64,000 nt of DNA from Prevotella sp. (lineage in GTDB: Bacteria > Bacteroidota > Bacteroidia > Bacteroidales > Bacteroidaceae), in the NCBI GenBank assembly GCA_024681875.1, contig JAILAA010000133.1, forward strand, positions 1-64,000, given 5' to 3'. This document shows positions 26,590 through 28,749 of the stretch, one piece after another. Below the pieces are notes generated by a model. That model was not told where the DNA came from. It saw only the letters and a list, made by a program, of their open reading frames with translations, and did no database searches. The position numbers and the translations under genes are program-made. Each line of letters opens with the position of its first letter. Within the stretch, counting starts at the first letter, position 1.

Positions 26590-28749
26590 TTAATAGACGG
26601 CCGGCATCCACACCGTCATCTCACTTTTGCCGCGGTTTCCCCAAGCATAATAGGGAATGAGGCGAATGGTCTTAGGTTGCTTGTGCGCAGAGACGGCTCT
26701 ATATAGCTGGCCGCTCCAGGAAGTCTCGTCACGCACGAAAGCCTCTGTCTCTAAAGCCATCATTCTGCTGCCGTCGATGGTAGTCTCCACGGTGCGGAAT
26801 GTAGCCGTTACAGGTAAAGCGATGTCATCGATAGAGGAGTTGGGGAGTTGAGGAGTTGAGGAGTTGAGATCAATGCTCTCTAAGCAATATACGATGGGAC
26901 CACGCATCACGGCCACCTGGCCGCGGCTCTCCTCCACCAGCGGGTTGGCTTCAACAATGACAGCCTCCATGGGCATGTCATAAGTGATGACGTCTCCCTT
27001 TTTCCACACACGATTGATGACGATATAGCCCTGCTCCGTCTGCGTACCGACAGCCATGCCGTTGACATGAACGGTAGGTACATGCGTCCATGACGGCACG
27101 CGCAGCGCAATGGCGAAAGTGGTGCCTCGGCGGCACTTCAGCGCCTCAAGGGTTAGCGTGACATAGCCGTTCCAAGGATAGTCGGTATGCTGTGTCAGCG
27201 TGATGTCGCCTACCCCGCCAATAGTCGTCTGCAAACGGCTCTCACCAAAAGTATTGACATACAGCCGTCGCGGAGCAGTGGTGTAGAGATAATCCTGTGC
27301 CTGGCAGAGCGTGCGCAACGTGTTCGGCGGGCAGCAGAAGCAAGAGATGAGTTTCTTACGTTCCTTCGGCCAACGCAGCTTATAGGGAAGTTCGTCACTG
27401 AGTCGCAGCGGATTGGTGTAGAAGTATTTCTCGCCGTCTAAGGATATGCCCGGCAGGACGCTGTTATAGAGGCAGTTCTCTACCACATCCATGTACTTTG
27501 CGTTGGCCGTGGCCTGCAGCATACGCCAGTTGAAAAGCATGTTGCCGATGTTTGCGCAAGTCTCGTTGTGTGCTGTACTGTGCGGCAGCTGATAGGGACG
27601 GCCATAGCTCTGGTGCACCTTCTGTATGCTGTCAGGCGTATAGTTCGTGCCGTCGGGCGAGGTTCCGTCGTAGAGAGCTCCACAGGCACCGTTGATGTAC
27701 ATTTTGCGCGTGACGATGTCCTGCCAGATGCTTGTAAGATTGCGCATCAGCTGCTCCTCGCCGCTCTCCAGATAGAGGTCAGCCACGCCGGCGTAAAGAT
27801 AGTTGGCACGCACGGCGTGACCCATGGCGCGGTACTGCTGACGGAAGGGTATGCGGTCCTGGTTGTCGTCAGTGCCGTTTACGACCATGCCACGGATGTC
27901 GATGAACTTCTTCAGCAGATCAAGATATTTCGAGTTGCCCGTCTCTCGGTAGAGCTCGGCCACCGCCATGTAATGCGAGGGGCAGATGGCGTTGCCGGCC
28001 AGCTCCTCGGGCGCGCGCTGACAGAAGTCGTAGAGGAAGTCGGCAGCCTTGACGCCGCAGTTGAAGAGCGTCGTCCTGCCTGTGGCACGTTTGTGAATAA
28101 TGCCGGCGGTAATGAGGTGGCCTAGGTTGTAGGTCTCGAAGTTGAGGCGGTTGGAGAAAGACCCATCCCCAGCGGACTCACCCCCAGTCCCTCCCTTGTA
28201 GGGAGGGGAGGGATTACCTTGTGTGGCAGGAGATGAGTCACCAGACCATGCGCCTTCTGCATCAGTTTGTACATCAGAAGAGGTATTCTCTCCCCCCCCT
28301 ACAAGGGAGGGGTTGGGGGAGAGTCCATTTCTCTCCTTGATGATGACGGGGGTGTGGATGTAGCCGTCGGGGCGCTGGGCCTTCTGGACGAGGCCGATGA
28401 AGCGGTCCATGATGGCATCGAGCTCGGCATCATGGGTCACGGCGTAAACGGAAGCAACAGCTTCCAGCCACTTGTACATGTCGCCGTCGTGGAACGGAGG
28501 GCCGTGGTGTTCGCCCTGCATCTCGCCTGCTGCGACAAGGAAATTGTTAAAGCCTTTGCCCTCCTTCGACTGCCACGTCTGCCACATGCTCTGCACGCTG
28601 GTCTTGCTCAGCACGTCGAAGCGCTCACCCCATAGGCCACCAGTCCATTGCACCGCCGTCAGCGGCACATTCTCCATTGCTTTCTGCGCCCCTGCGGAAC
28701 TAAATAATAACTGAAAAATGATAAATGACAAAAACAGTCCTTTCTTCAT
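26590..28749 (-). CDS. beta-L-arabinofuranosidase, GH127 (second copy)
   Basis: Exported GH127 enzyme. Signal peptide about 1-21. Catalytic landmarks are present: HNETCANIGNM (Glu/Cys pair) and ISCFCCPPNTLRT (Cys-Cys pair), as in HypBA1; the CCPPN form marks classical GH127. It carries three in-frame inserts: an element of 153 bp (28174-28326, 51 codons) between TPVIIKERNG and FSNRLNFETYNLGH, made of two inverted GC arms around a spacer, and a TCAACTCC word repeat (NSSTPQLPNSS) near the C-terminus. Without these it is of ordinary length, about 650. It starts 2 nt after the isomerase-like gene. Confidence 0.87.
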   Translation of the reverse strand: MKKGLFLSFIIFQLLFSSAGAQKAMENVPLTAVQWTGGLWGERFDVLSKTSVQSMWQTWQSKEGKGFNNFLVAAGEMQGEHHGPPFHDGDMYKWLEAVASVYAVTHDAELDAIMDRFIGLVQKAQRPDGYIHTPVIIKERNGLSPNPSLVGGGENTSSDVQTDAEGAWSGDSSPATQGNPSPPYKGGTGGESAGDGSFSNRLNFETYNLGHLITAGIIHKRATGRTTLFNCGVKAADFLYDFCQRAPEELAGNAICPSHYMAVAELYRETGNSKYLDLLKKFIDIRGMVVNGTDDNQDRIPFRQQYRAMGHAVRANYLYAGVADLYLESGEEQLMRNLTSIWQDIVTRKMYINGACGALYDGTSPDGTNYTPDSIQKVHQSYGRPYQLPHSTAHNETCANIGNMLFNWRMLQATANAKYMDVVENCLYNSVLPGISLDGEKYFYTNPLRLSDELPYKLRWPKERKKLISCFCCPPNTLRTLCQAQDYLYTTAPRRLYVNTFGESRLQTTIGGVGDITLTQHTDYPWNGYVTLTLEALKCRRGTTFAIALRVPSWTHVPTVHVNGMAVGTQTEQGYIVINRVWKKGDVITYDMPMEAVIVEANPLVEESRGQVAVMRGPIVYCLESIDLNSSTPQLPNSSIDDIALPVTATFRTVETTIDGSRMMALETEAFVRDETSWSGQLYRAVSAHKQPKTIRLIPYYAWGNRGKSEMTVWMPAVY
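26836..26868. repeat. GGAGTTGA octamer tandem repeat inside GH127
   Basis: Four consecutive 8-mers (GGAGTTGG, then three GGAGTTGA) encode LNSSTPQLPNSS on the coding strand. The same 8-mer, in complement, is tandemly repeated in nadB (49527-49562). Confidence 0.65.
28174..28326. mobile_element. 153-bp inverted-repeat mini-element inside GH127
   Basis: Ends are GGACTCACCCCC (28174-28185) and GGGGGAGAGTCC (28315-28326), complementary except for one base. Each arm continues with a CCCTCCC...GGGAGGGG palindrome (28186-28214 and 28287-28312) around a unique core. Length 153 is divisible by three and it is read through as 51 residues. It matches the element in GH35 at 46801-46947 in arms, order and reading frame (both begin LSPNPSL and end GGxGGES). 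No transposase lies nearby, so it would be non-autonomous. Confidence 0.65.

Follow-up and report, generated by a model that had tools for sequence, protein, structure and literature searches.

The question raised by this stretch of Prevotella sp. DNA (contig JAILAA010000133.1; 64,000 nt, hereafter the window) is how two unrelated glycosidase genes have come to carry similar inverted-repeat inserts that are read in frame. We propose, with a probability of roughly 0.7, that the inserts are non-autonomous copies of REP/REPIN type, presumably transposed as single strands, of which the gene-breaking ones are lost and the ones tolerated in loops are kept. The original prediction, that one single mini-element occupies both genes, gives way to several related tail families.

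Structure of the two inserts

Both inserts were found at the predicted positions and are read in frame, and the open reading frames of their host genes are uninterrupted. The features are as follows.

26590..28749, minus strand: GH127 beta-L-arabinofuranosidase-like gene, reading frame open through the insert
28174..28326, no strand assigned: T1-tail REP dimer in GH127, in frame, with hairpins at 28189-28207 and 28292-28311
46168..48687, plus strand: GH35 beta-galactosidase gene, reading frame open through the insert
46801..46926, no strand assigned: T1-tail REP dimer in GH35, in frame, with hairpins at 46816-46834 and 46893-46911
46927..46947, no strand assigned: tandem duplicate of positions 46906-46926, the final 21 bp of the GH35 dimer

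The expectation that the catalytic residues are intact was borne out for GH35, in which E186 and E314, which we take to be the catalytic pair, are invariant in 40 aligned proteins. Each insert consists of two facing units with an outer tail (GACTCTCCCCC or close to it), a hairpin of the form CCCTCCC-loop-GGGAGGG or close to it, and a variable centre. The inverted ends had been put at 12 bp; the real arms are far longer and each holds a hairpin of its own, those of the GH127 element (28174-28219 and 28281-28326) being 46 nt long and 87% complementary and those of the GH35 element (46793-46845 and 46882-46934) 53 nt long and 81% complementary. The position given for the GH35 element (46801-46947) stands and its extent does not, the terminal 21 bp being a tandem duplication and the dimer proper about 126 bp. 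The two inserts do share their translated orientation, which carries little weight because the element is a palindrome, and relatives use another phase of the tail (QTLPQPLP).

The T1 tail is GACYCWCCCCC, the stem is CCCTCCC/GGGAGGG, and the dimers are mostly about 100-150 bp with a short variable centre; GTCT is the usual terminus of T1 copies. When the surroundings of the stem were read by eye, on the inner side GTAACTACTC preceded and GAGTAGTTAC followed the stem, the outer side had GACYCWCCCCC, and neither a GTAG nor a CGTC tetranucleotide was seen 5' of the stem. If up to three mismatches are allowed, the window has five matches to the tail-plus-stem pattern (0.00 expected), each of them within the GH127 or the GH35 element, and eight to the hairpin pattern (0.22 expected).

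Dispersal in the window and in related genomes

Further copies and candidates occur elsewhere in the window (no strand is assigned to the repeats themselves).

18925..20490, minus strand: cysteinyl-tRNA synthetase (CysRS) gene bearing the next repeat
19350..19394: single C-rich REP in CysRS (peptide INPTPAPPLKGAGNENG), in frame, absent from relatives' readable loops
1350..1394: C-rich REP candidate, read in frame within an alpha-L-fucosidase gene (289-2070, plus strand)
5949..5991: REP candidate, read in frame within a second GH127 gene (4547-6970, plus strand)
45532..45576: REP candidate, read in frame within an ORF for an outer-membrane efflux protein (44993-45958, minus strand)
48738..48915: T2-type (GACCCCACCCC) REP dimer, intergenic, past GH35
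33080..33098: hairpin standing alone at the 3' end of an ORF (33074-34186, minus strand)

The CysRS repeat has a T2-like tail (AACCCCACCCC) and is classed as "other" by our tail-typing rule. The fucosidase gene holds a second hairpin at 1543-1564, and the efflux ORF an additional one at 45912-45928, at its N-terminal end.

Searching related genomes, as the original prediction had proposed, showed the elements to be dispersed, with 38 to 299 exact hairpins per genome in seven genomes; the same pattern written backwards gave 0-1 per strand. The elements are abundant in part of the GTDB genus Prevotella: the exact tail-plus-hairpin pattern was found in 97 of 200 genus genomes versus 8 of 295 order genomes (the genome G006 belongs to both samples), at 0 to 212 copies per genome on both strands together, with G006 the highest and control counts of 0 throughout the listing. 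These counts are of exact matches and so leave out worn copies as well as other tail families. Hairpins lie mostly in facing pairs, and among neighbours less than 250 bp apart in the loci read there were 56 left-right pairs versus 9 right-left and 3 left-left.

For closer reading we sampled 79 dimers from four Prevotella genomes, namely G006 (57 initial matches and extra stretches), G204, G069 and G001 (stretches picked by hand). The same stretches contain 97 single hairpins, 18 of them in frame and open and 8 at stretch edges. Many of the hairpins listed for G001 are no more than about 200 bases away from a contig end, and because of this clustering we consider that short-read assemblies probably break at dimers and so undercount them.

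Empty and filled sites

It had been suggested that orthologues of the two glycosidases be aligned for presence or absence of the insert. Empty sites proved to be the rule for both genes; the same segment at the same place in all relatives was not what the alignments gave, as most relatives are without the insert. Among the best 120 of 7995 matches to the GH35 protein an insert is present in 39, always in one loop, and 81 are short and empty (the uncorrected count was 40 filled of 121, two of the 121 being the window's own protein, and the duplicate record was removed). When the 39 filled loops were sorted by peptide motif they fell into seven classes and three unclassed loops, the window among the latter; in class G the peptide is too worn for its palindromy to be judged. 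At the DNA level about four kinds can be told apart among seven filled alleles, those of six loci and of the window. The 30 GH35 loci comprise 6 filled (L152-L155, L166 and L169), 23 short and one (L181) with a different loop of 16 residues. The predicted structure, a weak model with a mean pLDDT of 58.7, places the insert, with pLDDT below 50, after or before a helix on one side and a strand on the other, and the nearest solved structure (6eon) has five residues there. The surprising part is this repeatedly filled loop, REPs in frame being known elsewhere.

The loop could have been filled once; on that view the filled allele then spread from species to species, and gene conversion replaced its palindrome with those of other families. 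A fixed junction speaks for such a history: Leu precedes LFQ in 39 of 39 filled loops and in none of the 81 empty ones (whose last residue is S in 42, E in 24 and A in 15), and no filled loop has the IYG[KNPE] start. So does the GH127 linker, where among 80 aligned relatives a dimer at L007 has a centre homologous to that of the window and hairpins of another subfamily. The distribution of the filled state points the other way. Filled GH35 proteins are scattered over a tree made by a quick method, on which 18 changes of the filled state are needed and at least 13 gains or losses are forced by supported branches, and the window's protein groups with 12 empty relatives in a supported clade. Moreover, the DNA beside the loop in the seven filled loci is barely more alike among themselves than against 19 empty ones (upstream 0.75 vs 0.74; downstream 0.89 vs 0.86). 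We therefore regard a single filling as possible if rather doubtful. The Leu junction together with the unremarkable flanking DNA leads to either one old, overwritten allele that was passed around or insertion bound by a rule. On a wider reading, which we think unlikely and put forward tentatively, several REP families would be a standing source of loop variation in this genus and would re-enter the same loops of housekeeping and catabolic enzymes at a fixed junction, under a rule that favours those sites beyond mere tolerance; if it were true, loop length and sequence among species would be set largely by selfish DNA.

At the GH127 linker different palindromes are present in L004 and L006, the latter with an extra C-rich hairpin (7354-7373) elsewhere in the gene, and L074 begins within the linker. 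The remaining relatives have a linker of variable length, long in a few of them, in which a hairpin scan found nothing except one match in L062 that we read as chance. In CysRS the window's REP is absent from 26 of 26 readable relatives, of 30 loci fetched. At this loop, near residue 225 of the window's protein, G006 (L371) has a tandem array of the STLNSQP type and G018 (L372) an in-frame REP dimer, so that two kinds of repeat occur in one CysRS loop across genomes. Both insertion sites in valyl-tRNA synthetase (ValRS) are loops of variable length among 30 loci, with a clear dimer only in G006's own protein and possible worn remnants in a few others. ValRS may be single-copy in G006, one match having been obtained among the 8 scored of 148 first-look candidates.

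Search for a mobilising enzyme

On the REP/REPIN reading, a single-strand transposase of the HUH type (Y1/RAYT-like) would recognise the hairpins and copy the elements. We infer this type of transposition because of the hairpins, the facing dimers, the usual CT ends of T1 copies and the lack of obvious target-site duplication. Target-site duplications, which the original prediction had proposed to look for, are not apparent by eye at the dimer edges, edges that are inexact because the empty sites fall in loops of variable length.

As to RAYT-type genes, matches to PF01797 occur in 5 of 10 genomes, and matches to NF047646 in 98 of 150 genus genomes, 9 of these above the cut-off, and in 5 of 7 genomes. 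Many of the weak matches among the 150 genomes belong to open frames some 330-450 aa long, possibly a longer Y1 protein family, and no bracketing hairpin pair was present in the five flanks checked. A scan near the Y1/RAYT genes of L081-L091 found no C-rich hairpin, and in L182-L240 such hairpins lie near the gene and do not bracket it at L184, L188 and L216. In both sets taken together, a facing C-rich pair surrounds a RAYT gene only at L196 (= L225; G048 contig 30). The enclosed RAYT has its own, different REPs alongside, and the inner flanks of the C-rich pair also resemble inverted repeats. As a RAYT unit with C-rich ends L196 was rejected; it was taken as nesting because 15 relatives of its RAYT, some of which end at contig edges, have no C-rich ends.

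When 16 Y1/RAYT flanks were read by eye, 12 contained other REP families (e.g. GTAGGGGCAGG, AGCCCCGAAGGGGCGACAG and CGCCCTGAAAGGGC) and in four (L084, L085, L090 and L229) none was seen. Inverted repeats were computed for several of these families. The IS200-like/RAYT genes adjoin CGCCCTGAAAGGGC at L081 and L086, AGCCCCGAAGGGGCGACAG at L082, L083 and L089, and GTAGGGGCAGGCC at L087 and L091, and as these are three distinct REP families, we conclude that several REP systems are present in these genomes. No RAYT was tied to the C-rich REPs as their mobiliser, the flanks read having other REP families or none. The predicted transposase with matching ends is thus not established, the Y1/RAYT loci scanned having given one C-rich-bracketed gene.

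The elements may alternatively be classical MITEs, derived by deletion from a DDE insertion sequence that has matching terminal inverted repeats. Like MITEs they are short and non-autonomous in build, with long inverted terminal arms around a variable centre; unlike MITEs they have arms that are themselves hairpins, the dimer edges have no target-site duplication visible by eye, and no matching insertion sequence was found in the loci read. Single hairpins, some of which may be dimers with a missed partner, stand beside the pairs (97 and 79 in our sample), and five left-right pairs are 250-3000 bp apart in the loci read, the sole typed gene among them being the RAYT enclosed by one. This makes a MITE origin improbable.

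Reading frame and host genes

Coming back to REP/REPIN-type copies, the in-phase insertions in surface loops would persist, their predicted peptide being a flexible linker rich in Gly, Pro and Ser, and insertions that break or frameshift a gene would be lost. Frames were called from codon usage over up to 210 bases on each side of the dimer. The 79 dimers comprise 37 in frame and open with coding on both sides, 5 in frame with a stop, 2 across which the frame differs (both in G006), 27 with coding on one side and 8 with coding on neither side. By genome, they are distributed as follows.

G006 (43 dimers): open in frame 22, in frame with a stop 2, frame differs 2, coding on one side 15, on neither 2
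G204 (15 dimers): open in frame 8, in frame with a stop 1, frame differs 0, coding on one side 5, on neither 1
G069 (15 dimers): open in frame 5, in frame with a stop 1, frame differs 0, coding on one side 5, on neither 4
G001 (6 dimers): open in frame 2, in frame with a stop 1, frame differs 0, coding on one side 2, on neither 1

Coding-flanked pairs are thus mostly in frame and open, and lie in loops that are empty or variable in length in the relatives checked. Copies randomly out of frame, which would have spoken against the original prediction, are not the pattern found: 2 of 44 coding-flanked dimers are shifted and 5 more contain a stop. In G006 22 of the 26 dimers with coding on both sides are open, against one third for random phase (binomial P about 1e-7). 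This excess shows survival of in-frame copies; it is no proof of directed insertion.

The further suggestion that the element itself was selected to be readable was not upheld, since T1 dimers outside genes also have at least one fully open frame in 13 of 19 cases. Of six possible frames a mean of 1.11 is fully open outside genes (n=19) versus 2.29 inside (n=24), where 23 of 24 have at least one. We take C-rich, stop-poor sequence and the loss of damaged hosts to suffice for the larger number in genic copies. Of 59 classified T1-tailed copies 25 are open and in frame, versus 0 of 14 T2-tailed ones (Fisher 0.0015; 7 edge T2 copies excluded), a comparison in which T2 comes largely from one genome, 14 copies are untyped and the T2-like CysRS copy is filed as "other". 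Given the typing and the largely single-genome origin of T2, this contrast is too weak to show adaptation of the element for readability.

The hosts in G006 were identified for fourteen insert-bearing proteins chosen by hand, ten compared with NCBIfam and four with Pfam. Those above the NCBIfam cut-off are ValRS (two inserts), IleRS, AlaRS, CTP synthase/PyrG (two inserts), PriA, DnaG, an IGHMBP2-family helicase and Lon (a single hairpin); a glycogen-synthase-like and an esterase-like protein fell under it, and Pfam gave an outer-membrane beta-barrel protein, an outer-membrane efflux protein, a GH3-family (auxin-responsive type) protein and a GH8 glycosidase. The presence of inserts in numerous unrelated housekeeping and catabolic genes, and the commoner open frames of genic copies, would fit useful modules whose peptide or DNA/RNA hairpin serves the host gene, e.g. 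in translation pausing or in setting linker length. However, the inserts are patchy in relatives and differ in family, phase and sequence, and purifying selection alone would keep the frame, and we hold a host function to be distinctly improbable. Expansion of simple repeats or drift of a low-complexity linker is scarcely credible: the tandem array in CysRS of G006 and the 21-bp duplication in the window's GH35 are of that kind, but the arms are complementary, the same tails are dispersed through genomes, and as single-stranded DNA both window elements fold better than 200 of 200 shuffles (z -8.1 for 28174-28326 in GH127; z -3.85 for 46801-46947 in GH35).

On the REP/REPIN reading, selfish DNA appears to lengthen and diversify proteins in these gut bacteria. 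In this genus, common in gut and rumen, numerous species have in-frame elements, dozens of them in the best-sampled genomes, in hosts which include aminoacyl-tRNA synthetases, primase and CTP synthase and for which related empty alleles exist. Because filled and empty alleles coexist, the supply of protein loops by mobile DNA, its rate and any insertion rule are directly testable. Caution is also called for when proteins are predicted from these genomes, as insertions in them may stem from REPs.

Comparison with known systems

The view that the family is unnamed holds to the extent that Rfam gave no match at gathering score (Rfam may not contain the Rickettsia palindromic elements, RPEs) and that a limited literature search on REPs in Prevotella or Bacteroidetes found nothing on this C-rich family. 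In-frame palindromes are chiefly known as a curiosity of Rickettsia and a handful of others. The predicted likeness of the present elements, in a Bacteroidales, to RPEs (RPE-1 etc.) was supported: they are dispersed palindromes, in frame in unrelated genes, with empty sites in orthologues. RPEs measure about 100-150 bp, have another host than the Prevotella elements and are not known to share their tails or their two-hairpin build. In-frame insertion of RPEs is recorded in the accessible part of PMC3733652.

With REP/REPIN (BIME) and RAYT systems the Prevotella elements share short facing hairpins, high copy number, patchiness among species and several families per genome. Prevotella T1 copies usually end in CT, the dinucleotide that TnpA-REP of E. 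coli cuts according to the accessible part of PMC8266576, in which single-strand transposition by a Y1/HUH enzyme is also proposed for REPs. Unlike those systems, the Prevotella stems are without a GTAG or CGTC tag and a cognate RAYT was not found alongside; and whereas REPs lie mostly between genes (PMC3733652, in the part accessible), 37 of the 79 sampled Prevotella dimers are in frame and open in genes.

A close parallel is provided by the intragenic REPs of PMC3733652, the accessible part of which describes REP dimers inside genes of Opitutus terrae, Rickettsia conorii and others, where genes for repair and for tRNA synthetases hold them in frame. It also describes two Xanthomonas with different REPs at about one position in recB, and names Bacteroidetes as one of several phyla with CGTC repeats. 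As far as that part goes, the Prevotella elements resemble them in their in-frame dimers, in their tRNA synthetase hosts and in having different REPs at about one site, and differ from them in their sequence families and in the GH35 loop filled in 39 of the best 120 of 7995 matches. What is new relative to the known in-frame REPs and RPEs is therefore the tail families, the high genic share and a loop that has been filled many times.
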